A DNA stretch of 64,000 nucleotides from Owenia fusiformis (taxonomy: Eukaryota > Annelida > Polychaeta > Sabellida > Oweniidae). Made by a program: the position numbers and the translations under genes. Of this stretch, positions 2,334-60,475 are shown one piece after another (within the stretch, counting starts at the first letter, position 1; every line of letters starts with the position of its first letter). The stretch is from positions 3,696,001-3,760,000 of the forward strand of contig CAIIXF020000002.1 of the NCBI GenBank assembly GCA_903813345.2, given 5' to 3'. The notes under the pieces were generated by a model. The model ran no database searches. It worked only from the letters and a program-made list of their open reading frames with translations, and was not told the origin of the DNA.

Positions 2334-5300
2334 ATGGACCCGCTACGGATATTCATCAAATTCGCCTGTCTACTTGGGATATGTTTCTATTCTACGGAGG
2401 CACAAAAGTCACTCTGGCTTACAGAAATCGTCGATACTTTTAAATCTGTCCCGGGTACCTTATTTCTCGGGAGTAATATAACGAACATAACGTCGATAAC
2501 ACCAAAATGTTGGTCGGATTTTCAGTTCTATTTGGCAGTGCTTAACAATTCACCGACACCAATATTCACCAATCAATCGGTACCTCGAGAAATCATTTAC
2601 AGTATGTATATGTTTTATAATAATAATTTTATTAATTAAGATGACTGAATGACATTGAATTAATATCATGTTTAATGACATGACAAAATGGTTAAAATGA
2701 AACAGTGGTGTATTGTGTTCAAAAAGTAAAGGGCTGTATTTTTGTGTCACTCTGTAACATGATTTGAAAACACCGAAAATCATTTGTATATCGATCTAAA
2801 GGATTTTCATGTTTTACATCCTTTTTGTTAGTACTCGATCCCGATGCAGTTCCACCAGCGGGTATTGCAAGCGGCAAGGGGTTTTGGAATCGAGACTATG
2901 GTCTTTGTATGTCCTTAAAAGTGGATAACAAAATGTTTAACTTTACTTTTAAGAATTGTTCGTAGTGCTTGATACCGATGCTGTTCCACAAGCGGATATA
3001 GCAAGCGGCAAAGGGTTTTGGAATGGAGACTATAACCTATGTATGTCTCTGAAAGTCGATAACAAGGTGTTTAACTACTTGTAAGACATCCTTTTTGTAG
3101 TGCTTGATGCCGATGCAGTTCCACCAGCGGGTATAGCAAGCGGCAAAGGGTTTTGGAATGGAGACTATAACCTTGTCTCTGAAAGTCGATAACAAGGTGT
3201 TTAACTACTTGTAAGACATTCTTTTTGTAGTGCTTGATGCCGATGCAGTTCCACCAGCGGGTATTGCAAGTGGCAAAGGGTTTTGGAATGGAGACTATAT
3301 ATGACCTTTGTATGTTCCTGAAAGTCGATAACAATGTGTTTAACTTTACTTGTAAGACATCCATTTTGTAGTGCTTGATGCCGATGCAGTTCCACCAGCA
3401 GGTATTACAAGCGGCAAAGGGTTTTGGAATGGAGACTATGACCTTTGTATGTCCCTGAAAGTTGATAACAAGGTGTTCAACTATACTGAGTATACGGAGG
3501 ACGGGATACCCAGACGAGATGTTAGCCTACGTGCGAACTTCAAGGCGCAGTACTACCGAGTTGTCATACATGCTTTAGATGGGATAGGATTTATTGAGGG
3601 ATACCAAAATGTACTTCTGTGTAGTGAATATATTTAATATTACAGAATCACCTAATTTTCGACAAAAGTCTATTTTAAAGATAACTTGAAATTATATTCG
3701 AGACTGAATGTGGTTTCTTACATGGATTCTATATCTAGTATCGACTACAAGTTTTCATGTTATGGTTATTGTCTTTATTTTAAATGTATTCTTTAGCATG
3801 TACTGCAATACGTAACCAGTATCAATGAAGTATTCTGGGTGTTGACTGTTGAGGTCTCAGATTGAGATTATCGTACTTGAGTGATTGGGTGGGAATATAC
3901 GACATTGTTTCTTTTCACGTTAGACTATGGTTTGGGATACTTGGGGTTTGTTGTCTTTATAACTGGTGTACTCTTTGGCGTTTCCTTTTCTTGATGTATG
4001 TCTTTGGTTCATTCCTCTTGACAATTGTGCGTCCATATTGCTAGAGATCTATGTTTTCTGGTGAACAAGTTTTGAAAATATTTTTATATACTTATACGTA
4101 CTAGTTGTTGAAATGTTTTAAATTGTGCGGTTTGTGAAAGCTAGATGTTGCAAATTATTTTAATTAATTATGGCCTACTAAATATTATATACTGTATATA
4201 TAACATTTCATTTTATTCAGTTCACTATTACCTTCGGAGTGTGCGCCCCTGATAGTTGCTCATCATCTGATGTACATACAATGCTAAATGATGGAGAAAG
4301 GTCATTTGATGTTGCATCTGTTGAAAACCCCACATCGGGCAGAGGATTTATCAAAGACGACCCTGGAGCTATTGTAGCATTGTGAGTTCCATGTTTACAT
4401 TGTGTGTCTTTTTAGACAGCTACCTCTCAGTGATTTAAATTTGTTCATGTCTTTTGATTAGAAGTGACACTATTGAATACTAAAAACTCTCACTTAAGGC
4501 CATGCCAATTGCTTTTGAGATCATTAAGATGCAGCACCACAGCTACACTACATCGTCTTAAAGATGAGTATGACGTAACGGCAAGAAACTCAATTTGCCC
4601 GCTTTGCAAGAAGATCCTCACGTTCTTAATTTAGCAATGCTAGATAAGAAAATCGTAACACTGTCACAAAGATTGTTCTTAATTTACGGCAGTTGATAAG
4701 TTGAAGTGTTCCAATGATGCCAATATGTTTTCATTCTTATTGATAAAGCATGGTAAGGACAGCACAGGTTGTGAACCCTTAACCAAGTTCGGCAGTACCC
4801 TTGACGCCATAGCAAATTTTAACTGACTTTCTATTTCTATAACCTTTTAAATTTTTAGGAAAAAAACTAGAATATTGACAACTTGTTGTTTTATTGTTTT
4901 AAACAAAAGTTCATGTACCGCTAAATAACACCTAAAACATAAAGTCATGTAAAATTTGACAGTGTGGAATCGTGAAGGCCCCGTCATAACAGTGAATGGT
5001 GCAGCTCTCTCTATTGTAACAAAGATAAGAAATATTATATTGCGAGACTTTAACTATGAAAATATCATCGAACCTCCCGATTGAGCAACACAAGGCGACA
5101 TCTCCAGACTTTTTCTCGAAGAATCTCGTAATCAAACACATGATACAGGGAACGCTGCCATTATCAATTATGAATATACATTTTCAGGTGGATTATCAGT
5201 ATCTTTGTTGCGATTGTGTTAGCCGCCACACTGATAGATATGTTTTACATCACATTACAACGAAAACGACACAAAAGAGACGCTGAACTATACAAAGAAA

Positions 5301-8300
5301 CCACCACAAAAGGCGCCAAAGTGAATCATGCATATGGTGATTCAAATGATAAACATGGCACTCAAGCGACACGTTTTACTACGGAAAATCAAATCAACGG
5401 GAGTTATTACACACAGAAAGGTGACGATGATAGAAAAGAACATTCTGTTATCAATGGGGCTGACAATGGAAGTTTGAAAATCGTGACTTCTGATGCTCTA
5501 AAGGACGATGCTGCAACTAATGGTCTCAGCAACGGAAGTTTAAAAATCGCGACCGCTGATGTTCCGAATCACAAACCAAAACCATATAGTCCAGGTAAAA
5601 TAAATGTTCACGTCAAAAATTAACATTAGAGAGGTTAAGCAACACCACTTTTTACAACGTAAACCGCGAACGGGAAGGCGCGCGCAGGTTTATCTCATGA
5701 TGTGACGTCATATTGTTCTACTTATTTCCCGGTTTACGTACATCCAAACGTGAAAAATCAAAGTCTAGGTAGGTCGTTCCGTAAAGGATTTTTCATACTT
5801 TATCAAGTTCGATTGAGATAAATATGATATAGGTCGAATACATAAGTATGTTTGACACAAATCTGTGTATATATCGAGATCATTTGTGTCCAATCTAATC
5901 AAATATAACTTGAATATTGAGGCACCCATTCCATATGTAAAATTTGATGAGATTACATGCAATTGCAATTACCCACATGTCAACTCATCCATATTGTGAC
6001 ACCATAGTAATAAAACTATGAATGCCTTGAAGACTTGCTTAAAAGATATTATTGCGACCACTTGTATTTTGTAAGATTCAAGATGTCATAGAACACTACC
6101 AGGGTGTGAAACATCTTCTTTGTCAATAAAGTAATCTTTTTATACTTTTAAAGTAGAAAATAAAACGAAACGCCGCTAAGAAAAAGAAAAAAATTATTTT
6201 GAGGTTTGCGTTTGCGTTACGTCTAAAGTGCTCAGCTTAAAGCACGTTTGCACATAGTACGTATACGGGAACGTAAAGGTTTACGTTTGCGGTTCGCGTC
6301 ATAAAAAATCGTCTTGCTTAACCTCTCTATTAAGACCTTGTGGGTCCTAATGGGTCCAGGAAGGCTACATCCCTATTTCCTTACTATTTGGTGTCAAGTA
6401 CATTTATATGGATACCATTGAAGACCTCGTACTTCTTCTGATATAATCAAATCGTTAATCAATTTTTAACTCTACATGATATTGATATGATCTTCGATGG
6501 TTTGCTATGACATTCAACATAGTCAAGGCATTTTTCCCAATTTTCCCATCTATCAACTAGGTTTTATTAACATTTTTATTAGATTTCAAGCCTAAAACGT
6601 GTGCAGGTTTCAGAGAAAATATCGACCTAATGATGAGTGTTGCTAAGCAACGCAGCATACCTTCAATTCTTATATTATTATTTAAGCCAAATAAATTAAA
6701 TAAAAATTATATTACATTGTCATTTAACTTTCAAAATGCTGATTGTTTCAATTGCAAAGATATTTGATGTTGATGACCCAAAAGGTTTTATCTAGCCATA
6801 AATTGTATATGATTTGTCAACATGTCGTATATCCTACTCTCTTTATATTATAGGAGTTGGTATTCAAATCATTCTTGCCTTCTCAGTGTACAGCAATCTT
6901 CCCCAACTGATGAGTGTTGATGCTCCCAAAGGCTCGTATCCCGCCCTAAATTGTATATGATTTGTCAACAAATCGTATATCCTACTTTCTTTATATTATA
7001 GGAGTTGGTATTCGAATCATTCTTGCCTTTTCTGTGTACAGCAATCTTCCCCAACTGATGAGTGTTGATGCTCCCAAAGGCTCGTATCTCGCCCTAAATT
7101 GTATATGATTTGTCAACATATCCTATTCTCTTTATATTATAGGAGTTAGTATTCGAATCATTCTTGCCTTTTCTGTGTATAGCAATCTTCCCCAACTGAT
7201 AAGTGTTGATGCTCCCAAAGGCTCGTATCTCGCCCTAAATTGTATATGATTTGTCAACATGTATATACTCCTCTCTTTTAATTATAGGAGTTGGTATTCA
7301 AATCATTCTTGCCTTCTCAGTGTATAGCAATCTTCCGCAACTGATGAGTGTTGATGCTCCCAAAGGCTCGTATCTCGCACTAAATTGTATACGATTCTTG
7401 AGCATGGTGTATATCCTACTGGGGCATACATTTCAAATAGGAATCTATATTGGAGTTTCGGGCCAGTCTCTCGGTAATAATTCCAGCTGGTCGACTTTTG
7501 CTAACGACGAGCTTCTGGTTTCTACTTCTCTTTTAGTTTAGTTTATTGTTCCATATGATTCATAATTTAATTCATTATCGTAATCAAAATGTAATGCAGA
7601 ATATTGGGATGAGCACAAGATTTCAAAGGATATATCTGCAAAACCAGTACACTGTTACCAAAACATATAGCGTCGGAGGTGAAGATTGGCGTCTGCTTGA
7701 TGTAAATCAAAAGTCATTTTAACTTTTTAAGTCGTTTACCTCAGATGTTTTAATTTTGTTTTAAGTCCTATATCTCTATTTCCTCATGTTTTAGAAATTA
7801 ATTTCGTTTTCGTTTTCTCTTGATTTTTAAGGTATTGTTTTTCGAAAATTAAATTGCTTGCTAATATATTGTCCAGATATACTTATTTTAAAAGACACAC
7901 TAATTAGCTATAGACAATCAATATTTACAGAAAATTACAATTTTTGGTTGCTTCCGGTGTACCAAGGTCAGTACAATAACAGAGCACTCACAAATTCGCA
8001 GCTGGCCGTGGATTCATTCTTCGTTTTAAGGTACACTACTGTGAACAAGAACATTTTCTTTTATATATAAAGAATACATAAACAGAGTTGAAATCTTTAG
8101 AAATAGATAAAAAGTCCAGCTCAAATTACTTAATATTATTTAACAGGTTTGAAATAAACATTTGCAAGGTAAACATCGACAATTCATTATAAATGTAATG
8201 GTAGATTTCTTGAAGGTAGAATTGTACATTTTGAATGTGTGCATATAGACTACGGCCCACTATGATAGTTGTAACTCCTTCCTTACATGAAAGGTTACAC

Positions 8301-11300
8301 ATACCAACCTATTTCAAACCATCTGTATGATTATACTGGACACTTTCTGGGTAGTTGGACTTTCCATAGGGGTGGCAGATGGCCCTCAGACCAATTTATA
8401 CCCCTACCCCCAAAAAACCATGGGGGTACTTTAATACCACCCAATAAAAAGAATACTAATGCATGTCAGATATTCATTGTTTTATATTGGGTAGGGCATG
8501 TTATGGTTAGTAAGTGCCAGAAATTTCCAATCTCTAACTGATATGGTTACCATAGGAACAGTATTTATATCTTGAAATATTCTCAATTTGACCCCCTCCC
8601 AAATGTGTCCTTTTGATCTCAAAGTGAAATATTTGCAAATTTGTTTGGATTTTATGGCTGCTACTTTGTCAAAAATTGTATCAATATGTATATTTTAACA
8701 TTTAAACACTGAAAAGTGTTGATAATGATCCTATAAATCAATAATATTTATCAAATATAGTCACACATAGCTGCTTTTAGGGAAAAGTGGGCGTGGCACT
8801 TTTTGGTACATGTGTACTTGTTGCAGCATTAAATGAAAAATACATATTATACTAACAACAATTGACATTTAATTAGCATCTACTTATGTTATGTAACATT
8901 GTAATATGTTCATTATCATAATTAGACACTTTAAATATTTTATATCAGTGTTATCCTGACCCTTCCCTTTATCCCTACACCCTTCAAGGTGGGCATTACC
9001 AATCGTGTCAAGTTAACATTTCTGTTTGATTTATTTTTACCATAGACAAGGTACAAAAGCTTTACCATGAGTACTGACCTTATTAGGTGCTAAACTGATG
9101 AATGGATAGGTAGATGGCAGCATTTGTGCTGGTTGGACTACACGCTAGCATCTACCATAGACACATATTGATTTACCATATTTGTTATTTTGGATTAAAG
9201 TAAAACTGCTTTCGCATCAAACTCAATGAGATTCAGATTGTGTTTGAAACTACATGTAGATGATCTTCAGATTTTGTGTGAACCTTAAATTCATGACAAT
9301 CAAAAGAATTCAACATTTAGGAAGTCAACAATAAGATTTTTAACATCGTCTCAATGAGAATTTAGCCCGACCTTTTTCAGAAAGTTAAAGATCATAGAAA
9401 ATTGAACATAATCAAAGTTCCTCAGTAGAACATTTAATCTCCTAAAATCACATTAAAACTATATCAGCAATATTTCCAAGCTAAATAGTATAAAAACTTC
9501 TATCACATCATTTGCAACGTTTTCATTCTTCGATAGTTCAACCCTATATGAATTATTGATGATTTTAAAAGTGCAAGGAATCTAAATGAATCAGGGAAGC
9601 CAGTGATATGTATTTGCCTTATTCATTGTTGACTTATACAATGAAATAGACCTAGATGCAAGTAGAAATAATCTTGCTTTACATCATTAAAAATTCAAAA
9701 TTCAGTCAAATAAGTGGTATCATATTTGAAATCTTCATGTAGAATTACATTTCTTCATGCAATAAGTTAACCTTTTAGTGAGTAGTTGTGACTAATGTAA
9801 TCATGTACTTATACAATTTGTCAGTAAAAGTTATTTATCCTATACTTAGTGTTATAGGTAAATAAAATGCATGAATATAATTGATACCTTAGGTGAGTGG
9901 GGATATACATGTACTGCATATCCCGCTTTATCCCATACTTGGTCGTGTTTCAGGTACATAAAGCAGGTTTGTAAAAACTTATATTCTCATTCTCATCAGC
10001 GGGCAGATATAGCTTTGTATCTCATACTTGAGTGGGTTTGGGGTAGATATCACCCGGGAATATATATCGTATCTGAGAAGCGGGCAGGATATATTGTATA
10101 TGTCCCGCTCCAGGCCAAATGCGGGCAGATATAATATATCCATCCCGCTCCCGGGAATTTTTCAAAAGTTTAAATATCAAAAGTTTTAATTTTTTAATTT
10201 TAAAATTTAAATTTTTTAAGTTTAAATGTTACAATTTCATTGTATTGAACAAAAAGAATATTACGAAAATGTTCAATATAAATATCTTGTCATTTGAAAA
10301 AGGTGCAAAAGGTTATATCTACCCTAAACCCACTCAAGTATGAGATACACCAGTTATGCACGGTCGGTTTGGATACATGGAATATCCCTTGGGATATACA
10401 ATACATCTTCACTCGGTCCCTTCGGTCCCTCGGGAAGATATATTGTATATCCCTCGGGATATTCCCTGTATCCAAAACCTCCCAGTGCATAACCCCTATA
10501 TGTCCCGTTGTGAGCGTGCAGATATAGTATATCTGCCCACTCCGTCATAATCTCCCTCGGGCAGATATATTATATTTGCCTCGGGATAGTCTCAATATCC
10601 TGAACCTCATATAGGATAATCTCTATTTATCCCATACTTGGACGTGTTACAGGTACATAAAGCCGGTTTGTAAAAACTTATATTTTCATCAGCGGGCAGA
10701 TATAGCTTTACGTCCCGCCCCGAGCGGGCAGATATAGTATATCTGCCCGGGCAGATAAAGTATATCTGCCCGCTACGTCATAATCACCGCTCGCATATTT
10801 GTTCATAATTTGTAACGTTCGCGTAATGACTGTAAACGACAAGAGAAAACACAGACAATCGGGATCTGTTTGATGGTTTAAAAAAGGGAAGGAGCATCCA
10901 CTTAATTAATCAATCAAAAATTCGAGAAAATAAATGTGGGAATATCTGAGAGAACAGGAAAATCCGCCCACGGCCAAGAAAACAAAACTGGACATGAATA
11001 TTCTATAATATTTCCACGATTGAACAATGTGAACTAGATGACCAAGATTGGTATGGGATAAACATATTATCCTATAGTCGGTTCAGGATATTGGGATTAT
11101 CCCTTGGCCAATATAATATATTTTCCCTCGGGACCTGCGGCCCTCGGGCAAATATATTATATTTGCCTCGGGATAATCCCAATATCCTGAACCTCATATA
11201 GGATAATCTCTATGTATCGCCAGGTATATCACCCGCTCAGTAATCCCCTGCAGGAATTTCATTCTGTGCAATTTCTCATATTTTCGTATTTTAGTATATG

Positions 11301-14300
11301 ATAAATAATTTTGGGTACAAGGTATAACCCTTGGGAAATACAATATTCTACCCTCAACCCCTCGGGGAGGTATATTGTATTTCCCTCAGATATATTGTAT
11401 TTCCCTGTATTAAAAACTTCCCATTAATTAAACCTCATATATAATGCACACGATTTTAAATACGAATCAAAACTATGAATAAGTGATATCCATGTTTCTA
11501 ACGAAAGCATGAATTTGAAAGAAACAAACATTCTACTCATATGGTATAAAGATATTACCAGTTGTGTCCATTTTAGATTTGATTGAAGAACTTGAATTAG
11601 AGGCAATTTTGAAATTACAATATATTAAAAGAGGCTCTGTTGCTTAGATCGGAGAATCAATTAGCTGTATTGTTCAGTTTATGACAAAACTGATGTTTAG
11701 TGTTACTTTCCTGTAAAATAGCATTTGGAATCTAGTAGTTTGTATATAGATGAATTTGATAAGGCATTGTCGAGGGAAAATATCCAACAAGATCCAACTT
11801 AAAGTTTGCTTTTTCTTATTAAGTTCCATTACAACTTTTGGTCCTTTCCCTTTGGCACTAGTGCTTATATATTTACTAGTTTGCTCATGAAATTAGGCAT
11901 ACTTTAACTTGAAACAATTTGTAACACTCAATTTTTGGGGTTTGGAGATCGAAGTAATAATGATGAAAAACAAGCAAATTTAAAATATTTATGTTTTACC
12001 CAAATTTTTAAAGATTTTTGTTAGCCTTTGTTTTGTCTGTTTTATTCTCAAATAAATCATGGTCAATATCCCAGATACGAGTAGAAATAATCTTGGTTTA
12101 CGTCATTAAAATTCACAATTGAGTCAAACTGATGTCATATTTGAAATCTACATGTAAAATTACATTTAGAAATGTGGTTTTGAAAAGAGTTTATCAACTT
12201 TGAAAATTTAATTTTCTTTGAAAAAGTGACTTCTAGGTCGGAGAGATTCCCCATAGCCCCCATGTTGTAAAATCACAAAAATGGAAATATCTTTTCATGT
12301 GTTGGGCAGATAATATATATATTTCTTTTACTGGACATATTTTAATTTGTGTAACTATCAGATACATAAAGCTAATATGAATAGTGAACCACTAAAACTG
12401 ATGCATATTCAAGTTTAAGGGAATTTTGTAATACCCTGCCATGTTAATTCCCCCGAATCAGCCACCTGGTGGTGATACTGGTAACTACCTACTCGCATCT
12501 GAGTAATTCTATTGTGATATAATCATCATTTACCAATTTTAAAATTAAATATTACTAGTTAGAGAATGTGATTTCTTACTTTAGGTTATATTTATATCCC
12601 GATTCATATGTATAATAATAATTGATGAAGACGAATAGAGATTATCCTCTATGAGGTTCAGGGTATTGGAATTATCCCGAGGCCAATATAATATATCTGG
12701 CCTAGGGTTGTTGGTCCCGAGGGAAGATATTTTCTATTGGTATTGAAAATACAGCATATCAGAAACATGTGTAAATTGTTTATCTTGCAATTATTTTGCT
12801 AAATACTAATAGAAGTAATAGAAATTATACTGTACCTTCCAGATAATAGCTTTTTTGTTAACTATGAGGCAATGAATGAATGGATGCATTTTATTAAAAT
12901 TGCAAAATGATGCTCTATGCAATTCATACGAAAAATTAATTTTGCCATATTAGAATCAAGTATAATCTTTAATCCATTGGATAGATCATGCATTGCCTGA
13001 TGTTGAGGTATTGATAAAAGAATCAGCAAGTGTCTGACAAAATAGATCTTAGTGTTATGTATTAGGCAAATATTAGGAAGGGTATAAATGGTCTCCAATC
13101 TTTCTAGTTTTGAGTATTACGTCTTCTTGCTTTGATTCAAACTATCCTCGGTCACTATTTGTAACCCCTCCCTCCTTCCCCATTTAGGCCATGGATATGA
13201 AGATGATTTAGAGGTTATGTGAAGGATACTAGGGAAGGGTTAATAGCCAGAGTTATATTAATTCATTTAAGTTTAATCATAAATGTTATGCAATTCACAC
13301 TAGCATCAAATATCATACCAAAAGCATTGAACTGTTCATTACTTTTCAATTGCAGTAAACATGGTAAAATGGTTCTAAATATTGAAGCCCGTTGAACAAG
13401 CATATTAATTAATTGTAACTCATAGCTCTAGATGACTTGAACTTATCTATTCATATTCTAGGAACAAGTCAATGAATAAGTAAGACTTGACTCTTGACAG
13501 ACTTAAAAGACCGAGGACCCTATAAGACTTAAACTAAAAGTTAATTTGACCATTGATGACCTATGATAGGGAAGGGTCAGGATAACACTTATATAAAATA
13601 TTTAAAGTGTCTAATAATGATAATGAACATATTACAATGTTACCCCACATTAGTAGATGCTAATTAAATGTCAATTATTGTTAGTGTAATCTGCATTTTT
13701 CATTTAATGCTGCAACAAGCGCACAAGTACCAAAAAGTGCCACGCCCACTTTTCCCTGAAAGCAGCTATGTGTGACTATATTTGATAAATATTATTGATT
13801 TATAGGATCATTATATCAACTTTTAAGTGTTTTAGTGTTAATATAGACATAATATTACAAATTTTGACAAAGTAGCAGCCATAAAATCCATACAGATTTT
13901 GAAATATTTCACTTTGAGAACAAAGGGACACATTTGGGAGGGGGTCAAATTGAGAATATTTCGAGATATAAATACTGTTTCTATGGTAACCATATAAGTT
14001 AGAGATTGGAAATTTCTGGCACTAATTAACCATAACATGCTCTACCCAATATAAAACAATGAATATCTGACATGCATTAGTATTCTTTTTATTGGGTGGT
14101 ATTAAAGTACCCCCATGGTTTTTTGGGGGTAGGGGTATAAATTGGTCTGAGGGCCGTCTGCCACCCCTATAGAAAGTCCAACTACCCAGAAAGTGTCCAG
14201 TATAATCATACAGATGGTTTGAAATAGGTTGGAATGTGTAACCTTTCATGTAAGGAAGGTTGCATTTCTAGAGCACTTCTACAGAATGGATTACAGTCTA

Positions 14301-17300
14301 ATAACACAAATTCGCGAAAACCTTTCTTTTTCAATGTTTGTTAATTTTTTCAGTGGCTTCCTTGGTGCAGTTTCCTTCTTGAAGACACTGGACAGACAAG
14401 GTGGGAAACTACGGCTCAAGCAGATGGGATTATACTTCTTTCACAGATTTTGGAGGTATTGAAAAACAAGCCGGTATAAAACGGAAAACTAGACTTTGGC
14501 TATTCCAAAAACCAAATTAAAGTTAATTCAAAAGTAAAAAGGAACAAAGTATCTCGGTCTTAGAGTTTTGGAATTGTGAATAATTAGTGAAAGCACAACT
14601 TATGTTTATGCGTATACATAGCTATACTTTATAGATATAAGTGAATCGAAAATGAAGAAACAATATTTTTTGGTAAAAATAATCAAGACACAATATTTCT
14701 GTAATATAAGGTTTGATCCTGGTAAGTTATGACATTAACGATTGAAAAAAAGTAATCGCAACCATGAATACTTTTCTCCCGAATTATTGTGTTTTTCAAA
14801 AGTATGGAATATGGTGTTGTCCTTGGTATCTACAACTATTTTTGATGTCAAGAGTATTGTTTACATCATTTTGTTTTATTCTTCGACATATATTGCAATG
14901 ATTTTTATTATAAATGGCGTGTTACACGGTTGGATTGGGATGTTGCACATAACTCATTATTGTTTACGATATTTTTGCAATCGTGTATTCAAATGAATTT
15001 TAAATTCTTGTTTTATTACAGAGTGAATTGTACTGCTTATTATCGATGTACTGTTTTCATTTTGATTTGTAGACTGACTCCAGTTTATATGATAGTTTTG
15101 ATGTTTTTTGCAACCCTTTTTAAATATACGGGCGATGGTCCACTTTGGCCCGTGCGCCAGGATCAGATAGAGGGATGTCGGATGCATTGGTGGACTAACC
15201 TACTATATATTAACAATCTCTATTTACCAGGCCCACTGGTAAGTTTTTTAAATTTTATTTTCTTATTAAAAGCAATATAACATATATATATGGTGATTAG
15301 CAATGACCCCGATGAGGAAATATTAGGAGCCGCATACTGGTATTTGCAGTTTTGGAAGAACATCATCGGAGGGTTCGATACAAATCTTTGAAATGTTGTA
15401 TCACTTATAGTTATAGATTATACTCAATAAAATTCGTTTTATGAATGATAGAATATTGCCTCAACTGCTAATAAACATTTCATCTTAAGTTCTACACTAG
15501 GTATACTGATTGAGTAGAATTTCAAACAAACAATATTTTGTAAATATGCAGTTTTCGAACTAAACGTTTCAAAATTCTAAAATGGTTAAGAGTTGCGCAC
15601 TAGGATGAAGTACGTTGATGTTGACAATACCACTAATACAAGAGAACGTTATCTTAGAAATTTATGTCATTGTATTTGTTCGACATTATTTTTGTGACAG
15701 TGTCTCGTTCCCTTTTTGGCACATAACATGTATAAATGAAACCATGATCTGAAACATCGTTGAGAGGAAAGTATGAAGACATTCCCCAATCACTTATTCT
15801 ATTTTCAGTGCTTGGGATATACGTGGTACCTTGCTAACGACATGCAGTTCTATATTGTCGCTCCTGTATTCCTGTTTGCCTTGTTCAAGTGAGTATAGAT
15901 TCATAACAACTCCCAAGTTATTCAGATACCATATTTTCCAGATATAATTATCATATCAACTACACTATAAACATAGATGATCGACCTAAAGTCCATGATA
16001 AAGCATTTTTAAGAGAGAATCAAAAAATCACATATACTAGTCTTACATTATATTTCATTCATGACAATATTAATCCAATTTGTGTATATTCCAACTTATG
16101 ATTAAATTGTGTCAATATATCCACCAAAATGAAAAAGGAACACTCATCTGGTAAGATCTGACGAACACGTCCTATTCAAATGCAATTTGTATTAAACATG
16201 TACTTATTTATTATTTCTTTATCAACCCTTAGGAAACCCGTTGTTGGCTATATTCTCACTGGACTAACCTTCCTTGGAAGTATCATTGCAATCAGCGTCC
16301 TGCACTTCCAGGGCAACGCTGACTATGTCCAGTACTACATAAAGCCATATACAAGAATTGGGCCATATATCATTGGTATATGGCTAGGATACTTCATATG
16401 GAGAACAAAAGGAAAAATCAAAATGAAATGGGTAGGTTTGAAATGCTGTGTTATACCTCGCTCACATAAGTTCCGATTCATCACTGGCAACATTCGTCAG
16501 ATTCTTAGACATTGCACGAGCGCCTTTAGAACTTTATCTGGGACATAACAGTTGCCAATGTCTCGCTGATTTTTCTCTTGCCCGTATGGTCAGGTCACCG
16601 AGCGGTTTGAAACGGCTCTCGGTAACAGCGTACGGCATCCTGTAATTTCTTCAAATGGTACGTACTTGATTAAAACTTGATTCTAATTAGTAAAAATAGT
16701 TACTGTATATAAAGGTTTTCACAAAAATGTGTAATACAAATGCCAGTAGTATAAAGTATAAATCAAATGAAACATTGGTGTGTGGTTGGAAGGATAGGTA
16801 GGTGGGTGGTACATTGAGTATTAGCCGGTTGAGGGAGTAGATTTTCCGAGGTCCAGACGGATGCCGTGCGACAATCGTACGATCACTGTGCGATCACCGT
16901 ACGATTTCAATAATTCAAATTATTTGCGGGCGCCACGCGATGCGTGAGCATACTCACGATTATTGCATGATATCAGGGAAAAGTCTCCATCGATCGGCTT
17001 ATTTCACAGCACCTAATCGGTAGGAGCCCCTTTCTTATGTGAACTAGGCATTACATACGTGTATATACATATAGTTTAATATTCGAACTTTTGTTAGTGG
17101 TTGCAAGCAAAAACATATGTTATCACTGTTCTGCATAAATATATGTTCAATTTTTAGTGGATGCAAGCGATAGGATGGATATTTGCTATAGGATTTATAC
17201 ATGCTGCAATTTACGGAAACTTTAGGCCACTTGGCACGCCATTTGAGGGAGTCCCGGCTGCTTTCTATATTATGTTCAAGAGACATATCTTTGGGCTGGC

Positions 17301-19408
17301 TGTTGCTTGGATTTGCTTGGCATGTATTACTGGATATGGAGGTGAACCTTTTAAAAATAAATCTAATGTATTGCATTCCGAGCTTAAACTTACCAGGAAT
17401 TTGTGCAGGGAAGATGTAATTTGTTTCATTGGGGCCTTACTCAAGGTCAAATGCATTTATTTCGGAAATGTAATCATGTAAGTCTCAGTTACTGAGACCA
17501 AAGGCCACTCCCTTTTGTCCAGTATCAGCGACATATGCGCCAGCAGCAACATTTATAGCCCGGACACCATCCCCCTGTTTAAATTTCCCAAGGAGAAATC
17601 TCCCCCCCCTCACTTCACATCTTTCTTGGACACATGCTTAACCGAGGCAGGTTTGTAATTGTCCGCATCCGTTTTTCACTCTACTATACTTAACCAATAA
17701 CCCCTAGAAATGCATAAGATACTCTTTTTGGCCAATTGTATTGTTTCGTATATTTTTGAAAGTACCTTTACCATCTAATAACGTCCGATAAACCATTCAT
17801 AAGGAACAGACACATAAAAACAAATAACATAATCACTACTAATAAGAACACCAAATGCAAGGTGTAGTAGAGTGTATATCTTTCTCAACCAGCCTACCTT
17901 TTCTCCAACACATCAAGTTTGGGTCCTGGAGATTCATAATATTATATGCTATAATGTTACCTCTTTTTAAATGCATTATACTCGAAATTTTATGCAATAT
18001 CTATTGTATATATTATAATATCACTCAATTAAAGAACTTTAACTCTACAACATAATTTGGGAATTTGACATACGTTACATTAAAACTAGAAAAGCGTATA
18101 CTTTCATTATGAAACTAATCGAATTCATTTTTTTGTGAAATATTTCATTTTATATAATTTGTGTATTCATTTATTCATCTTCTATTAAAACGTCTGATTT
18201 CTGTTCACCAACAAACTTGCTCTTTATTTACCATGTATTTTAGGAGTGGCGAGTTTGGATTCCAGATCCTCTTTTCTAAATTGACGTTAACTCTTTACTT
18301 GAAACATCCAATGATCATAGGCTATTCTCAATCAAAGACATGAACCACATTTTTCAGGAGTGGTAAACGAGCCAATGTCATGGCGAGTATGGATCTATAT
18401 TTTGTAGTTGACATACACTTGTTACTTGTAACATCCAATGATCATAGGCTATTCTCAATCAAAGACATGAACCACATTTTTCAGGAGTGGTAAACGAGCC
18501 AATGTCATGGCGAGTATGGATCTATATTTTGTAGTTGACATACACTTGTTACTTGTAACATCCAATGATCATAGGCTATTCTCAATCAAAGACATGAACC
18601 ACATTTTTCAGGAGTGGTAAACGAGCCAATGTCATGGCGAGTATGGATCTATATTTTGTAGTTGACATACACTTGTTACTTGTAACATCCAATGATCATA
18701 GGCTATTCTCAATCAAAGACATGAACCACATTTTTCAGGAGTGGTAAACGAGCCAATGTCATGGCGAGTATGGATCTATATTTTGTAGTTGACATACACT
18801 TGTTACTTGTAACATCCAATGATCATAGGCTATTCTCAATCAAAGACATGAACCACATTTTTCAGGAGTGGTAAACGAGCCAATGTCATGGCGAGTATGG
18901 ATCTATATTTTGTAGTTGACATACACTTGTTACTTGTAACATCCAATGATCATAGGCTATTCTCAATCAAAAACATGAACCACATTTTTCAGGAGTGGTA
19001 AACAAACTAATGTCATGGCGAGTTTGGATCCCTCTTTCTAAGTTGACGTACACTGGATACTTGATCCATCCAATGGTCATGTACTATTATCACTACAACA
19101 GGAGACAGCTACAGTACATGAGGATATTTCCAGAAATGGTATTTATATTTATCTAATTGATTATTGAAATTGACCGATGTATGATCACTGTTTATACCAT
19201 ATAGCAGATAAGTGCATGAGTGAATGTGTCATATGTTTTTGGGTAATGTATATCTCTATTTGAAAATTATTTACACTTTCAGGTGTTTTTGTTTTGCGCA
19301 ATACTATGTGCAACAATAGCTGCAAGTATCCTGGTTACACTGACATTTGAGATTCCAGTGTTACACCTTGAGAAAATCATGTTTCCACAAAACAAAAAGA
19401 ACAAATAA
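2334..19408 (+). CDS. NRF-6-like membrane acyltransferase (acyltransferase-3 family), 13 exons
   Basis: Exons: 2334-2601, 3372-3610, 4221-4381, 5188-5594, 7288-7473, 7931-8030, 14354-14455, 15073-15238, 15809-15888, 16233-16431, 17158-17341, 18993-19138, 19283-19408. They total 2364 nt (787 aa plus stop), and all phases agree. Seen: a signal peptide (residues 1-24); a cysteine-bearing extracellular N-terminal region (C59, a DYDLCMSL segment, GVCAPDSCSSSDV) like the NRF domain; a first membrane segment at about 223-247 followed by a basic, hydrophilic loop; then a multipass region with FFVLSGFL (about 450-457), a WWTNLLYINN segment and CLGYTWYLANDMQF (544-557). These are hallmarks of 'nose resistant to fluoxetine' proteins, whose nematode member is implicated in lipid and drug transport. 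The substrate here is unknown. The exon 2 donor (GTACTT) and exon 5 donor (GTAATA) are weaker choices, made by phase. Exons 2, 5 and 12 carry upstream decoy arrays. Family assignment is confident; exact ends of exons 2 and 5 less so. Confidence 0.9.
2832..3371 (+). repeat. Tandem decoy copies of the exon 2 acceptor region
   Basis: Four decayed copies start at 2832, 2966, 3101 and 3231, and the real exon 2 at 3372 (spacing 134, 135, 130 and 141 bp). Each has a T-rich tract, TAG, then about 115 nt matching the start of exon 2 (codons for LDADAVPPAG and GKGFWN), ending near the exon's AAGGTGTTTAAC. The next unit then begins with intron-like GTAAGACATCC and a T-tract. In the exon 2 frame every copy ends in a stop (TAG, TAA, TAA, TGA); copy 3 lacks a few bases before CTTGTC. 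GTAAGA after three of the copies could serve as a 5' splice site. Confidence 0.9.
4382..5187 (+). other. Intron 3 of the NRF-6-like gene, no recognised repeat
   Basis: AT-rich. A mid part (4500-4820) is less AT-rich and may be an old insertion, but no ends, frames or copies were found. Intron 2 (3611-4220) also shows nothing. Confidence 0.4.
5629..6327. mobile_element. Nonautonomous element, GAGAGGTTAAGC termini, copy 2
   Basis: The same 12-bp termini occur at 5629-5640 and 6316-6327, flanked by CATTA and TATTA (4 of 5). It starts 35 bp after the exon 4 donor, in intron 4 of the NRF-6-like gene. The interior is mostly different from copies 1 and 3 apart from the GTAAACG-rich ends. 699 bp, no ORF of note. 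Confidence 0.85.
6854..7287 (+). repeat. Tandem decoy copies of the exon 5 acceptor region
   Basis: Three decayed copies start at 6854, 7002 and 7143; the real exon 5 starts at 7288 (spacing 148, 141 and 145 bp). Each has CTTTATATTATAG followed by about 100 nt of exon 5 (GVGIQIILAFSVYSNLPQL-like), then TGTATATGA where the real exon has TGTATACGA, so Arg becomes a stop by one C-to-T change. The following bases, through TATATCCTACT, are still recognisably exon-derived and run straight into the next acceptor. The exon-derived part is about 130 nt and the intron tail about 15 nt. Confidence 0.9.
9654..9770 (+). mobile_element. Truncated copy of the AGATGCGAGTAG-ended element
   Basis: Starts AGATGCAAGTAGAAATAATC and follows the 12073 copy for about 110 bp (TTTACATCATTAAAAATTC, ATTTGAAATCTTCATGTAG) before diverging. 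Nested in the 6-kb intron element. Confidence 0.6.
9890..11425. repeat. Array of hairpin modules rich in GGGCAGATATA / TATATCTGCCC
   Basis: Multiple imperfect palindromes: 10352-10493 (arms about 58 nt), 11056-11216 (about 65 nt), 11313-11424, plus the GCGGGCAGATATAGTATATCTGCCCG core near 10730. Several share an apical GC-rich segment of the CCCTCGGGACC / GGTCCCTCGGG type. Half-modules occur at 10550-10640 and 12640-12735. A block of about 75 bp (CAGGTACATAAAGC to GCAGATATAGCTTT) is directly repeated at about 9952 and 10651. Confidence 0.8.
12073..12500 (+). mobile_element. AGATGCGAGTAG-ended nonautonomous element, copy in intron 6
   Basis: Ends AGATACGAGTAG (12073) and CTACTCGCATCT (12489-12500). 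The interior is an inverted match to 25226-25648, including ACCTGGTGGTGA and the CTTTTCATGTGTTGGGCAGA region. No clear target duplication. Confidence 0.8.
14456..18243 (+). other. Introns 7-11 of the NRF-6-like gene, mostly unique sequence
   Basis: Outside exons at 15073, 15809, 16233 and 17158 and the repeat at 17740, only a small GC-richer patch with short inverted words (CGTACGATCACTGTGCGATC, 16860-16950) stands out. Confidence 0.4.
17740..17870 (+). repeat. Dispersed repeat, copy 1 (intron 11)
   Basis: Matches 22945-23090 in the same orientation: TTTTTGAAAGTACCTT, CCGATAAACCATT, AAAAACAAATAACATAA and ACACCAAATGCAAGGT. Element limits were not determined. Confidence 0.65.
18244..18992 (+). 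repeat. 127-bp tandem decoy copies of the exon 12 acceptor region
   Basis: One divergent copy at 18244 is followed by five nearly identical copies at 18358, 18485, 18612, 18739 and 18866, then the real exon at 18993. Spacing is exactly 127 bp for the last five intervals and 114 for the first. The unit is about 20 nt of intron end (CCACATTTTTCAG) plus about 107 nt homologous to the start of exon 12. The decoy frame reads GVVNEPMSWRVWI and then stops at TAG. The five copies are far more alike to each other than to the real exon, pointing to recent amplification or homogenisation of one diverged copy. Confidence 0.93.
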
Positions 19409-25740: not shown

Positions 25741-28014
25741 ATGTTACCCAATGCGGCCGAATGGCAAAGGGCATCGAGCGTAGGGAAAAACTACATCCGT
25801 TTGATAGCGGAGCATTCCATAGGTAAGTATAAAATGAAATTATCTGGACTCGTTACCAGTATTTTCCATACATCCCGGGCCGATATAAAGATGGCAGCAC
25901 CAATTATAAATAAACACAGATCGATTATAATGCCATCTTTATTTTAAAATTATTTCTATCGACTTTAGCCTATGTTGTACTTTCATAGAAATATTCTGTT
26001 TGTATACTTTGAAAGAAAATAGCTTGTCTCTGGTCGGTGATACGATTTATTTTGGCTCTAGTTATTTTGTTACATACTCAAGAGTTTATTTGGCACTGGA
26101 AAGTAAAAGTTGCCAGCATCGTGCGTACGTGTCACCTTGATTAAATCATGGATCAGATAAACATGATTATAAAATCCTAAAGATATATTTAATATCTATT
26201 AATAAGTAAAAACAAAACATCTTGTTTATTGATGTGTATTTTAATTTTTCAGGATTCCTTGTTATATTGCTAATACCAACGATACACTTTGGACTTGTTC
26301 AGAGGTAAAACTGATTTATTATTAGGTTTACCATAGTTTTTTTTATTTACCATGGTTATATCACAATTTGTATAAACTATGGTTCTCGGTGATTAGCCAG
26401 TACGCACATCTTTCTACAGTAATTCACTTATGGGTCAACCCAGCCAAACAATGACATTATATCAATGTGTGATCTATAGGTTTTTTCCACGATGTCACAT
26501 ATTAATAGTTCACTCGCATGCCTTTGAAATTACTAATTTTACTGTTTTAGATTATGGGTCATAAAAAGTCCCGTAGACAGAGAAAAATGCACGTGTGACT
26601 GTTGGGACACCGTTTTCAAAGGTAAAAACAAATAAAATGTTGAAAGCGTATATATTATACCTTTCCAATAACCAGATTGCCACCTTTAGTAACACCAAAG
26701 AAACTTGAATATATCGGCTAAATGATGATGTAATACGTTGTATGGCTCTCTCCATGTAAAAATAGGATAAACTTAAAAAAATACTTCGAAGAATGCAAAT
26801 AACGACTGTTGACTATTGGTGTACTTTTTTATGGCAAACTCATTTAAACATAAATGGAATAGTGGTAGATTTTATTCAAATCAGTTCGTCATAAAACAGC
26901 GGGTTAATCCTGTAGCCAACAGCCGAAAGTTGTATATTTGCGAATACAAGTTTAGCTTGATCGCGAACGCAACCTTCGACTGTTGGCTAACAGATCAATA
27001 ATTTTCATAAATTAACCCCTCAATTAGCGAATCAGCTACTGGGATACACAGCAGGCACTATTCATATTTTTTTAATTAATTGCAATCAACCCTAGCCGCC
27101 AGCCGAAAGTTGCATTCGCGAATAAACATATGACATCACGAATATGGCCATTAAATCATAGCTTTCGTTGCAACAAAAAAAAATATTCCATCTGAATCAA
27201 TGCGGAGATCTTGTCATGATTATCCATAGCAATACTACATATGTACGTTTGCGATTAAACTGCTAGTAAGGCCCTAAAACGCTGATTTAGCAATACAGCT
27301 AACGAACTAATCATCCATTACCTCTCCCATCAAGTTTTTTGTTTTATTTTGGATGATATATTTTCAGGATCTTACGAGGGAACAAAGGAAAACTATAAAC
27401 CAGGATATAAACATATCTACATCAATGTGACTGTCAATACATTCCTTATTTGGGCAATATCTCTTCTTGTCCTTATATGGACATACCAAATTGTTAGGCA
27501 TGTCACCAGACTAATATTCAACGGTAATCTACGAATACCAATGATAATAGTAGTATGTGGCGCCATCTATCCTCATTATTATTCTTGGTGGAACTTTTGT
27601 AACTATTTAAATGATGATTTCTACGAACAATGGAACCATCAAATGTTCTTTTCGTTAACGGAACTTGCAGGAACTTTAATGGCGCTGTACATGAGTGATT
27701 TGAGATCAGAGTGTCAACCCAGGTTACTTACCGGAATGATCTCTATAGCAATGGCTCATATATTCATAAGTGCTTCCGATCAATTCCTTGTAAATCTATT
27801 CATTGGGGCAGAACAATTTAAGAGATCCAGAGATATAGGTTTCCTAGTGGGAGATATATTGACTGTGTTGTTGAGCTTAGTTGAACTCTTTAGATACTCT
27901 AAACGTAAAGGTTTGACAATGATGGGAGCTGTTGGGAAAAAGCATATGTGTACAGGTTTAGCAGTAACATCTATGCTGGTGATAGTGGCAATGCACATAC
28001 ACTCCCCTCCATAA
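25741..28014 (+). CDS. Uncharacterised multipass membrane protein with CxCxC motif, 4 exons
   Basis: Exons 25741-25822, 26253-26304, 26551-26621 and 27368-28014 total 852 nt (283 aa plus stop) with phases 1, 2, 1 consistent. Seen: a hydrophobic segment at about 29-43, then CTCDCWDT (58-65), a membrane segment at about 93-112, and a conserved-looking stretch IYPHYYSWWNFCNYLND followed by QWNHQMFFSLTELAGTL, then further hydrophobic helices and a basic SKRKG tail. I do not recognise a named family and give no function. The aromatic and polar residues inside hydrophobic segments suggest an integral membrane protein. The last codons (HSPP) and the stop lie inside an inverted-repeat element that begins at 28000, so the C-terminus is probably not ancestral. 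Another element ends 92 bp upstream of the ATG. Confidence 0.8.
26913..26989. repeat. 77-nt hairpin in intron 3 of the CxCxC gene
   Basis: TAGCCAACAGCCGAAAGTTG at 26913 pairs with CAACCTTCGACTGTTGGCTA at the right, with two mismatches. A related half-site (GCCGCCAGCCGAAAGTTGCA) lies at about 27095. Confidence 0.65.
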
Positions 28015-36100: not shown

Positions 36101-39100
36101 TATAGTAGTCGTAGTAAATTTTAACACCAAATTCAAGGTGTGTCAAATTAAAATGGCCTCACAAGACAAGGTTGAAATATCGGCAATTTGATGGTGATAT
36201 CTGGTCTGCGATAGATAAAAATTGACTGCCCGCATCACGTGTCACGTGACACTATATTTGTTAAAAAATGAAAGTGATAGTGGCAATTTTTAATCTTACG
36301 TATATCCCCCTATCACACCAAACTAGTTCTTACCCGTTCTTGCCAGTCCTACGAAAACGTCGTAAAACGGGCTCAATCTGACTGTGGTCGGGAAATATGT
36401 CTAAAATAATTAGCTACTTCGTTCAGAAACAGTCTTCAATACGTCCATCTCATTCACAGTTCGTTCAGGTCGCACCACGTCGGTATGCAACGTCGTATAA
36501 CGCGTCCCTTAGTCTAGAAGGTCATCATGACCTGATTACAGAACGGTATGGTCGCCATCGAATTTTGAATCATTTTAAAATTCTAAAATCGCCTTCCCGA
36601 CTGAAAACGTTCATGAAGTCCGTAAATAGTCCTTAAAAAGTTGCAGCTACATTCATTCCGTTCGCACACAGTTTAAAATCAGTTTTGAAGAACGCAGTGG
36701 CAACTTGTTTGGTGTGAAAGCTATATTTTAGCTAACTTGTTCATAAGCAGTCTTAAATACGTTCTTAATCAGTTTAAACCCGTTTGCAATTAGTTCTACC
36801 TCGTTCTCAAATCTCAATACGTCCTCAGACAGTTCGACTCGACTCATTCAACTTGTAAAAACGTCCATAGTAGGATTGAAGTGCGACAGTTCCGTTCGTA
36901 GTACGTCCAGCGCGTCGTTAGTACGTTGTCACTCGTTCTAATTGTAGAACGTGACGACCACGAGAGCATTTTGAGCATGTTCTAAGTTCTAGGGGAACTA
37001 CGTACCCGTTCAAGTACGTTCGATGAAGTTTGTAAATATACCCCAAACGGTTCTAAGTACGTCCAGTCCGTTCGTACATAGTTGAAGCCCGATTTCGAGA
37101 ACGTAGTGAGAAGTAGTTTGGTGTGATAGTAGGGTAAAGTGAACACCAATATTACAAACACATATCTATTTTTTATTATATATTTATTTATTCGTTATAC
37201 ATACATTTGTTTAATCCTACATTGATTTATTTTGGCGATAACTTTGCTATTAAATCTTTAACTAAGTTATGAAAAGCTCATACCTTACATTTCTCAGACA
37301 TTTATAATATGTACCCTTTGTGGTTTTGTTTTTAGCTGAAGCGAGCTGTATGAGAGATGCATTTGACAGTACAAAGTTCTATTTTGATGTTTATGTCTTC
37401 CACGATAATAATGCCATATCCCGAGTTATAGGAGGATCGATATCAGGTGGCTCCAGTCAAGGTATTTAAGTCTTTTCTCGTATGACTAACCCACATACAT
37501 CTATCTTTACCCCATGCAATATAAAGAGGTTCTTGTATGAGTACCCGTTCAAGATACAGAGTTTCTTGTATGAGTACCCGTGCAAGATGCAGAGTTTCTT
37601 GTATGAGTACCCGTGCAAGATGCAGAGTTTCTTGTATAAGTACTCGTGCATGATACAGAGTTTCTTGTATGAGTACCCGTGCAAGATATAGAGGTTCTTG
37701 TATGAGTACCCGTGCAAGATGCAGAGTTTCTTGTATGAGTACCCGTGCAAGATGCAGAGTTTCTTGTATAAGTACTCGTGCATGATACAGAGTTTCTTGT
37801 ATGAGTACCCGTGCAAGATATAGAGGTTCCTGTATGAGAACCCGTGCAAGATGTAGAGGTTCCTGTATAGGTACTCGTGCAAGATACAGAGTTTCTTGTA
37901 TGAGTACCCGTGCAAGATATAAAGGTTCTTGTATGACTACCCGTGCAAGATGTAGAGGTTCTTGTATAAGTACTCATGCAAGATACAGAGTTTCTTGTAT
38001 GAGTACCCGTGCAAGATATAGAGGTTCTTGTATGAGGATCCCGTGCCAGATGTTAAGGTTCTTATATAAGTACTCGTGCAAGATACAGAGTTTCTTGTAT
38101 GAGTACCCGTGCAAGATATAGAGGTTCTTGTATGAGTACCGTGCAAGATACAGAGTTTCTTGTATGAGTACCTGTGCAAGATACAGAGTTTCTTGTATGA
38201 GTATCCGTGCAAGAGGTAGAGGTTCTTGTATGAGTACCCTTGCAAGATGTAGAGGTTCTTGTATAAGTACTCGTGCAAGATTCAGAGTTTCTTGTATGAG
38301 TACCCGTGCAAGATATAGAGGTTCTTGTATGAGAGCCCGGGCAAGATATAGAGGTTCTTGTATGAGTACCCGTGCAAGATGTAGAGGTTCTTGTATAGGT
38401 ACTCGTGCAAGATACAGAGTTTCCTGTATGAGTACCCGTGCAAGATATAAAGGTTCTTGTATGACTACCCGTGCAAGATATAGAGGTTTTTGTATGAGTA
38501 CCCGTGCAAGATCGTCCATTATTGATGACCTTTGTTAATTCTTCTATATCGAATCGAATACGAGAAAAAGAAACATTATCAAAGCGAATAAGGAAGCACG
38601 GGTACGAGTACAAGTAAGTCTCGTCACAATGGAGCTTTGTTGCCTTGCGTATTTATGCATTTTTTGTCATATTTTTTATTGCATTGTATTTTGGTTAACG
38701 CCAATTTATTTTGATAAGTAAAATACAGAGTCATACGAATATAACTTTCTTGTACTCGTACCTGTGCAGGATTGTTCATTTTTAATTCTAGCGGAATCAA
38801 TTGGTGAATGATCTTGCGTTTTCATACTAAAGTTCGTTTTTGAGTTTTTTCTTATAGTTTTATGTATTTAAAGATATTTAAGAGACAGGGCCCTTTTTCT
38901 AAAGCCCTTTTTCGAAAAATAATTGAGATTACACAGGATACCTGTTATTTCTGCTTTTTAACACAATTTTAATAGAAAATTCAAATTCCAAACTCCTTAT
39001 CTCACTATAATTTACCAATGAAGAATGGGAATTGAGCAACTAAACTTGGCACTAAGTTAGATCCTAGGATAAACTCTAATCTAAGGGCTTTGATTTTTTG

Positions 39101-58451: not shown

Positions 58452-60475
58452 TTATAGCCTATCAATATTAAGGGATCTCTTATTGCACATATTATAAACT
58501 AAAGCTCCTAATGGTCTTTGGAGTGAAGTACAATTCATAATGGAGACAAAAAGAAGTGTAGAATTGGCTGATGTTACATCTAAATAGGGCAATTTCTGTT
58601 TAACATTTTCATAAAAATCACATCTTAGATCATCATAATGGCTACATTCTAATAAGAAATGCTTTTCATCTTCAATACAATTCATGTCACATAATAAGCA
58701 TTTCCTTTCGTGTAATGGTATACCTGTGTAGCGCCCTGTTTCAATTGCTAAGGGTAAAGTACCAGTTCTGAATCTAGCGAGTGACCTTCGGTGATGCTTT
58801 GGTAGGGCCAAATACCCTTCCTTGCAAACACCATATTTGTACAGTCTATATTGCCTCAATTTATTGCCATTAATTTCATTATTTTTATCATCCCATATGT
58901 TATGGATAAATTTATCAGAATTTCGAAGAGAGTTAGTTAACTGTTTTAAAATGTATATATAATATCACCGAAGCTTATACGTTTTGCATTACAGTGTTTA
59001 CTCAGAGTTGAACACAACATGCCTTGCATGCGTTCAGCTTTTGGTGTGTCATTTTTGAAATTCAGATTTTTCATAAGTTCATTATCAAAATTATCACCAT
59101 TTGACTTGCCAAATAAGACCTTATTTTTGACATCTTTATAGGATTCCCGGAGCAATCTCCAAGTTTTACCCTGGATATTTTTTTCCCAGAGTATCATGAA
59201 AAGAAGATCTATATCGATAACATCAAAAGCTTTAGTCATGTCAAGAAAAGCCAAAGTATTTTTGCGTTTATTTTTACGAATACTACAGAGACCTTTCAGG
59301 GCAAATATGTGATTCTCTAAACGTAAATTACTGCGAAACGCACCCTGTAGATCACCAAATAAGTTCTTTTCTTCACAGAAAAACATCATTTTGCGCTCAA
59401 GAAGGGAGTAAACAACTTATTAACATTTGAGTTTATAATAGTAATTGACGATTTGCGATCACTGGATGAATTCTATCTTGTAGTGACGTCACAATTAGGC
59501 CACCCTGTTATAGCTTTTTGATTTTGAGAGACCCTAATCTTCTGATTTCGTACTTTATTGATTATTTTTTCACGGAAGTGTTCGATTTGACTAGATCAAC
59601 ATTCATGCTAGGCACATGCCAAGTCCAAGATCTTACTTACATGATTTAGATAACGGCTAAGCGCCCCCGATTTTGACAAAAACGGGGGGTGCTTATAGGC
59701 ATCGATGTTTAGTATGAATTACACCGAAACTACACAAATATAAAGATATACTCATGATCTAGTCAAATCGGCATACCTGGTAAATATCCGACCCATGGTT
59801 TTCATAAAAGAATCAATAACATTTTTAGCTTAAAACTGCCACGTGTCAGCCATTTCATCTCCTCATCATGTCTAATATCTTTTCTATATGACGTCACACC
59901 AATAAGACGAAATACATGACAACATTATCCATAAACAAAATACCTGACTTCTGATCGCAAAAGGTCAATTCCGTGATAGTTATTCATGTCCTCCATTTCG
60001 CCATTCTTATGCAATGGTTTCCAGAGCCCAGATTTCCATTCATCTGGCATAGTTTAAAGCAACCTCACTTTTGTAAAAATGTCATGGAGCGTATGAATCA
60101 TCGCCTTTCCTCCATTTTTCAGAAATTCATTAGGGGCTTAGTCTGTACCACAGGCCTTACCATTACTTAAGGTTTTAATTGAGTTTTGAATATCTTCCTG
60201 GTCAAATATAAAGCCGGTCATTGCATCATTAGAAAAAACAGTTTCCCTTTTATTTCCAGTTTCTCAATGATGTGTGAATTAGAATTTTCTTTAAAAGGAG
60301 GTTTCTATCTTTTCTACCGACAGAGCCCCAGTAGTCTCTTAGGACCTTGACACTAATTTTGGCTCAGTGATAATATTAATATTATCCTATGGATCCTTTA
60401 TTTGAATAGGATAGTCACATTTAGCATTAAGTGTTTTCCAAAACGACTTCGAGCTTTTTGACTTTTTGGACGCGT
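58452..60475 (-). pseudogene. LINE-type retrotransposon remnant (reverse transcriptase), interrupted
   Basis: Read right to left: KSKSSKSFWKTLNAKCD (about 60470); SNGKACGTD and PDEWKSGLWKPLHKNGEMED (60180-59975); after a nested element, VNKLFTPF, GDLQGAFRSNLRLENHI and NTLAFLDMTKAFDVIDIDLL (59440-59180), the first catalytic block of a LINE reverse transcriptase; then RTGTLPLAIETGRYTGIP and a CLLCDMNCIEDEKHFLLEC zinc-knuckle-like tail (58790-58650). The second catalytic block (YADD-like) is missing between about 58950 and 58860. Several stops. Nonfunctional. Confidence 0.85.
59447..59965. mobile_element. AATT-flanked foldback element inside the LINE
   Basis: Inverted ends GACGATTTGCGATCA (59447-59461) and TGATCGCAAAAGGTC (about 59952-59965), flanked by AATT (59443-59446 and 59966-59969). 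An inner pair, CGATTTGACTAGATCA and TGATCTAGTCAAATCG, and TGACGTCACA on both sides make most of it fold back. Removing it with one AATT restores an unbroken reverse-transcriptase frame. Confidence 0.93.

Follow-up and report, generated by a model that had tools for sequence, protein, structure and literature searches.

What process places near-copies of a splice junction directly ahead of the genuine one, and how the genuine one comes to be used, are the questions raised by an NRF-6-like gene of the annelid Owenia fusiformis. The gene lies in a 64,000-nucleotide stretch of contig CAIIXF020000002.1 (hereafter the window), and three of its exons are each preceded by partial tandem copies, here called decoys, of the intron end and exon start. 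The original prediction saw in this arrangement either a recurrent duplication process tied to 3' splice junctions or a set of poison acceptors tuning expression.

The window gene and its three arrays

The gene occupies positions 2334..19408 of the plus strand. Its 13 exons, joined at GT/AG borders, give an open 787-aa protein matching PF01757 (Acyl_transf_3, E 9.6e-29) and PF20146 (NRF N-terminal domain, E 2.7e-12), and this open reading together with the two domains indicates that the real acceptors are well placed. Tandem Repeats Finder and alignment located 4, 3 and 6 decoys ahead of exons 2, 5 and 12, exactly as had been counted, in units of 114-148 bp; the upper end of the range proposed earlier (127-148 bp) is kept and the lower one is shifted by the first spacing of the exon-12 array. 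All three arrays lie on the plus strand at the acceptor side. The first one (2816..3483) comprises decoys starting at 2832, 2966, 3101 and 3231, spaced by 130-141 bp, and runs into the real acceptor at 3372 (exon 2, 3372..3610 by exon joining, as for the other two exons). The second (6768..7396) has decoy starts at 6854, 7002 and 7143, spaced by 141-148 bp, a headless partial unit upstream of 6854 and the real acceptor at 7288 (exon 5, 7288..7473). The third extends over 18244..19080 (18295-19080 according to Tandem Repeats Finder), its decoys starting at 18244, 18358, 18485, 18612, 18739 and 18866, that is, after one spacing of 114 bp and five of 127 bp, before the acceptor at 18993 (exon 12, 18993..19138). 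Overlap of the arrays with the real exons amounts to 112, 109 and 88 nt, respectively, and the intron part of the exon-12 unit to about 30 nt in an alignment read by eye, so that the composition first suggested (15-20 nt of intron plus 107-132 nt of exon) holds only in part. Units of the exon-2 and exon-5 arrays have diverged from one another. At exon 12, the decoys at 18358, 18485, 18612 and 18739 are identical and that at 18866 reaches 99%, with 71% for the diverged decoy at 18244 and 64% for the real exon over the aligned unit.

Copies were sought around every exon edge, at distances of up to 1,500 bp and with E no higher than 0.001. Three of the 12 acceptors had such copies; the other nine and all 12 donors had none within this distance, and the only further match fell inside exon 4, 30-60 nt before its donor. 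For this gene, the statements that decoys are confined to acceptors and that the other ten exons lack arrays are thereby upheld. The pyrimidine tract and AG are kept in all 13 decoys, each of which also has an in-frame stop within the unit and so would end translation if used, as was foreseen. Exon-2 units carry, in addition, a donor-like GTAAGA or its relic at nt 110-121; the stop is found at or after this point in decoys 1 and 2, and earlier, by way of frameshifts, in decoys 3 and 4. Such uniformity would suit a poison-acceptor device, in which decoys are used part-time, the early-stop products are broken down and protein output is set by the number of copies, the more so as decoys 2-6 of exon 12 reproduce exactly the last 18 intron bases of the real exon; stops, however, are expected in decaying copies regardless.

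The surroundings contain several other repeats and open reading frames. Just 5' of the gene (977-1611), a 236-bp unit is present in 2.7 copies with 96% matches, and part of it seems to be repeated near 2130-2260. Intron 6 holds a 692-bp inverted-repeat pair (8277-8968 and 13568-14259) whose arms are 94% complementary and span about 6 kb in all; the structure has the appearance of a mobile-element insertion. Farther downstream are a 221-aa ORF (27349-28014) that contains several hydrophobic segments and matches no Pfam family at E 0.001, about 30 copies of a 33-bp unit with long open stretches in several frames (37511-38512) and minus-strand ORFs at 58452-59389. One of the latter weakly resembles a reverse transcriptase (PF00078, short of the curated cut-off), and these ORFs probably represent a decayed retroelement. 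Rfam at gathering threshold gave no match in the window.

Sister genes and the association of arrays with exon edges

Genome search with the window protein disclosed two sister genes on the same contig (C2), at about 449-460 kb (first sister) and 465-478 kb (second sister), both on the minus strand. Thirteen matching exons were placed in each of the three genes, 6 of the 13 lengths being identical in all, with sister borders set by hand from matches and splice signals and, for the second sister, an approximate exon-4 end. Arrays of the first sister are situated at exon 2 (7 decoys, unit of about 137 bp), exon 5 (5 decoys, 148 bp), exon 9 (83 bp) and exon 13 (3 decoys, about 98 bp), and a single decoy precedes its exon 12. 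In the second sister, arrays of 3 and 2 decoys precede exons 5 and 12, the latter with a unit of 183 bp, Tandem Repeats Finder detected no array at exon 2, and exon 6 has an array on its donor side, where 14 copies follow the complete exon and make 15 units of 101 bp when the exon itself is included. Decoy numbers in the window gene, first sister and second sister are 4, 7 and none found for exon 2, 3, 5 and 3 for exon 5, and 6, 1 and 2 for exon 12. The proposed search of paralogues for arrays at the same exons was thus rewarded at exons 5 and 12 in all three genes and at exon 2 in two of them, and it added three edges to the list, which now comprises the acceptors of exons 2, 5, 9, 12 and 13 and the donor of exon 6.

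The sisters also set limits to several generalizations. Exons 6, 9 and 13 do bear arrays there, one of them at a donor; AG is replaced by CGG in 2 of 3 decoys of exon 13 and by TTG in the first exon-2 decoy of the first sister; and units range from 83 to 183 bp over the three genes, which means that they do not track the size of one nucleosome, as was supposed. For the poison-acceptor device these comparisons cut both ways: copies before exons 5 and 12 recur in three genes of three, but their numbers vary, some have lost AG and an array of like build stands on the donor side. The annotated protein P0001, a partial product of the first sister, bears on the same point, as at exons 2, 5 and 9 it includes a single copy, the last one, and none of the decoys; its start, upstream of exon 2, deviates from the predicted exon 1. 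Neither the window gene nor the second sister has a high-identity annotated Owenia protein among 59 hits and 120 of 848 matches listed. The published Owenia annotation pipeline discarded 5,779 models overlapping repeats (PMC9977687), and such filtering is a possible reason for the missing annotations.

Another reading supposes that exon-2 units arose as alternative cassette exons, 117 nt long, in frame and with their own GTAAGA donor, some of them being still in use. Three of the seven exon-2 decoys of the first sister indeed measure 117 nt up to an intact GTAAGA and are open in frame. None of the four window decoys at this exon combines an intact donor, a length divisible by three and an open frame; only about 20 nt separate the donor from the next acceptor; stops occur in all window decoys of exons 5 and 12; and P0001, again, has a single copy.

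Positions of the arrays were then compared with chance. Tandem Repeats Finder reported 10 arrays with a period of at least 60 in the three genes, all on an exon edge (9 acceptor, 1 donor), and none in mid-intron; intron-only arrays have periods of at most 36. Two arrays lie inside exons, in exons 1 and 4 of the sisters, and both periods (27 and 48) are divisible by three, a pattern that random duplication followed by selection would be expected to leave. The one in exon 1 of the second sister (L039, C2:468001-478000) is an in-frame 27-bp repeat in 5.3 copies encoding the nine-residue AVVNNPTGP. Under random placement, the chance for a unit to span an edge is 0.135-0.285 per array, giving a joint p of 0.003 for the three sites beyond the original finding (acceptors of exons 9 and 13, donor of exon 6) and 1.4e-5 for all six, though three of these were chosen because they had already been seen.

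Abundance of such arrays was estimated from 254 kb of additional Owenia sequence (18 stretches taken at round coordinates, the window from 20 to 64 kb and three stretches flanking the three genes), where 29 arrays with a period of 60-400 and a score of at least 150 were found; tandem arrays of this size are consequently common in the Owenia genome. Combining this density with 26,966 genes (PMC9977687), all taken at the span of the window gene, and a spanning chance of 0.05-0.16, one expects, by a rough and post hoc calculation, about 4-109 genes with three edge arrays genome-wide, so that a single three-array gene is in itself unremarkable. More remarkable is the absence of mid-intron arrays, 3.6 of which were expected in the three genes and 0 seen (p 0.03, likewise post hoc and with the flanks of these genes included in the 254 kb). 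Edge association within the gene group exceeds the post hoc chance model, and a process favouring exon edges may be at work. Should this process be aimed specifically at 3' splice junctions, for instance through stalling at the polypyrimidine tract, acceptors are what one would expect to prevail, and they make up five of the six sites. The sixth is nevertheless a donor with the highest copy number, the proportion of 5 to 1 shows no significant bias (p 0.22), frame-keeping repeats occur also within exons 1 and 4 of the sisters, and the comparable "mirages" of amphioxus are reported at both edges (PMC3087553). Recurrence, at six edges of three genes, is what remains of the duplication process first envisaged, and a process aimed at 3' splice junctions appears quite unlikely.

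Further cases were sought beyond the three genes. Search with the PF01757 family returned 0 matches, and a p450 search, inspected by eye over 108 rows, had no repeated neighbouring match to one stretch in a row view that misses many arrays. The same kind of view in the NRF-6 search displays the decoys of exons 2 and 5 and misses the arrays at exons 6, 9, 12 and 13; with this blindness, more distant Owenia relatives on C3 and C12 have one match per exon. An array at L010:3112-3832, first taken for an acceptor array, was judged non-coding by eye and discarded.

Divergence of decoys and the probable tolerance of arrays

Substitution patterns were assessed with positions classed singly, so that compensating indels bring some noise into the ratios below. 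The 11 exon-2 decoys of two genes differ from their majority sequence by 23 synonymous and 43 other changes (N/S per site 0.49). Private changes have a ratio of 1.12 and shared ones of 0.16 (Fisher p 0.00097), synonymous differences dominating the shared variation by 15 versus 9. For the 11 exon-5 decoys of three genes, the corresponding numbers of changes are 8 and 9 with N/S of 0.37, a deficit of amino-acid changes (Fisher p 0.029) without contrast between private and shared ones (0.33 vs 0.44, p 1). Pooling of both exons yields 0.88 for private and 0.21 for shared changes (p 0.0045), a result driven by exon 2. The real exons themselves have ratios of 0.06 for exon 2 in two genes and 0.13 for exon 5 in three. 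Our reading is that exon-2 decoys are now probably free of protein constraint and took their shared variation from a constrained exon, though former coding exons would look alike. The mostly synonymous shared variation may accordingly be counted in favour of cassette exons, but the neutrality of private changes speaks against them, and given the stops and missing donors described above we regard continued use of such exons as very unlikely. The same neutrality weighs against poison acceptors, for which the deficit at exon 5 is an argument; on balance this device, too, is unlikely.

Trees of the copies tell different stories for different exons. At exon 12 (three of the six window decoys used), the decoys at 18358 and 18866 join the real exon of the window gene (0.89) and the nearer decoy of the second sister joins its own real exon (0.81); the decoy at 18244 and the first decoy of the second sister, which look the oldest, stand apart from their real exons, and the first sister has no resolved placement. 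At exon 2, decoys and real exons are intermixed, most of the groupings being poorly supported. For exon 5, the tree unites the real exons to the exclusion of the decoys (0.99), so that no re-seeding is seen there, and it pairs decoys of the window gene with those of the first sister according to position (0.93 for the last, 0.88 for the first), which implies that this array predates the split of the two genes. Such pairing, like the divergence of units within the exon-2 and exon-5 arrays, is hard to reconcile with an assembly artefact, which the four identical exon-12 decoys might otherwise suggest. The published Owenia assembly, moreover, was obtained from PacBio reads with an N50 of 26-31 kb, far above any array length, although at 505.8 Mb (PMC9977687) versus the 498.3 Mb analysed it is perhaps not the same assembly. 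An artefact is extremely improbable.

We consider it most probable (roughly 0.7) that the exon-edge arrays are of the mirage kind and are tolerated since splicing uses the sole complete copy; tolerated repeat instability seems a better description of them than a new splicing device. A stretch across the intron end and exon start would have been tandemly duplicated and then expanded or contracted, presumably by unequal exchange, as tandem units and differing copy numbers suggest. An acceptor is combined with the true downstream donor only in the copy adjoining the intact exon, and exon definition would select this copy; the decoys would remain intronic, as the one annotated sister protein suggests. 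They would decay and, at exons 2 and 12, seemingly be seeded anew from the functional exon; this exon cannot disappear, and anchoring by it may explain why arrays persist at edges and not in mid-intron. Re-seeding and anchoring are suggested by trees with partly weak support and by the private/shared pattern of exon 2.

In favour of tolerated arrays are the six edges hit, the edge-spanning position of all 10 long-period arrays, the variation of copy number among sisters, the contrast at exon 2, the groupings at exon 12, the 13 matching exons per gene, the presence of the last copy, once, in P0001, the commonness of arrays in the genome, and the architecture and regular splicing of the amphioxus cases. 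Plain decay is at odds with overall ratios below 1 in the decoys of both exons and with the missing contrast at exon 5; re-seeding, with the separate position of the diverged first exon-12 decoys, the weak supports at exon 2 and the separate real exons at exon 5. An edge association beyond the placement model and the partial nature of P0001, with its start unlike predicted exon 1, also count against tolerated arrays. A bolder version, in which functional exons are protected master copies re-seeding minisatellites, so that decoy splice sites accumulate at edges genome-wide as a pool of cryptic and cassette exons, seems doubtful to us; if true, regulated or new splice forms could be drawn from this pool, and the 117-nt in-frame exon-2 units would be an example.

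Comparison with known systems

Tandemly duplicated mutually exclusive exons also consist of tandem exon copies. From these and from cassette exons the window copies differ in being partial, ending before the true donor and meeting an in-frame stop on read-through in 13 cases of 13, with the three exon-2 decoys of the first sister, suitable in donor, frame and length, as the exception. Intron gain in Drosophila is reported to involve tandem duplication of exonic sequence with one copy turned intronic (PMC2891723). The Owenia arrays share the duplication and the intronic copy; unlike that case, they created no new intron position, as evidenced by 13 matching exons in all three genes with sister borders set by hand.

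Closest are the mirages of amphioxus, whose existence contradicts the original statement that no such system has been described. As reported, these are minisatellite-like tandem copies across an intron-exon edge in the globin genes BflGb6 and BflGb9; that of BflGb6 unites the 3' end of an intron with the 5' part of exon 2 in units of 150-160 bp, 6 or 3 by haplotype, with 81-100% identity (PMC3087553). Reported units range from 10 to 160 bp, splice signals occur in many, not all, of them, either edge can be affected and splicing is regular (PMC3087553). Repeats of 60 and 108 bp at splice sites of one gene are described for lancelet PGBD5, and Adh (Adh3) and troponin C are named as further cases (PMC3902484). 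Owenia units likewise span the exon-intron edge; those of the window gene (114-148 bp) fall inside the reported range, and those of the sisters (83-183 bp) do so with one above it. Splice signals are again kept in many units and not in all (AG in 13 of 13 window decoys, lost in some of the first sister), and either edge is affected (acceptors only in the window gene, the exon-6 donor in the second sister). Concerted evolution within the cluster with exclusion of its ends is also alike, decoys 2-5 of exon 12 being identical and the first one 71%. As to splicing, the observation in Owenia is that the partial P0001 carries the last copy at each of the three arrays within its reach.

The differences concern the host, an annelid, and the number of sites, three in one gene and six over three sisters; the exon-5 array, moreover, is older than the split of the window gene and first sister. 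Length differences between haplotypes and somatic instability belong to the amphioxus picture; for Owenia, the comparison covered the sister genes of one assembly. A search of the open-access literature, most subscription papers lying outside it, found no annelid mirage case. The Owenia arrays are thus real, known in kind, and new in place and number. They extend a structure of lancelets to an annelid and show it repeatedly within one set of related genes, at donor as well as acceptor edges; at exon 5 it has outlasted a gene duplication. The sisters with their differing copy numbers provide natural material for learning how splicing ignores near-perfect decoy acceptors and whether exons anchor arrays.
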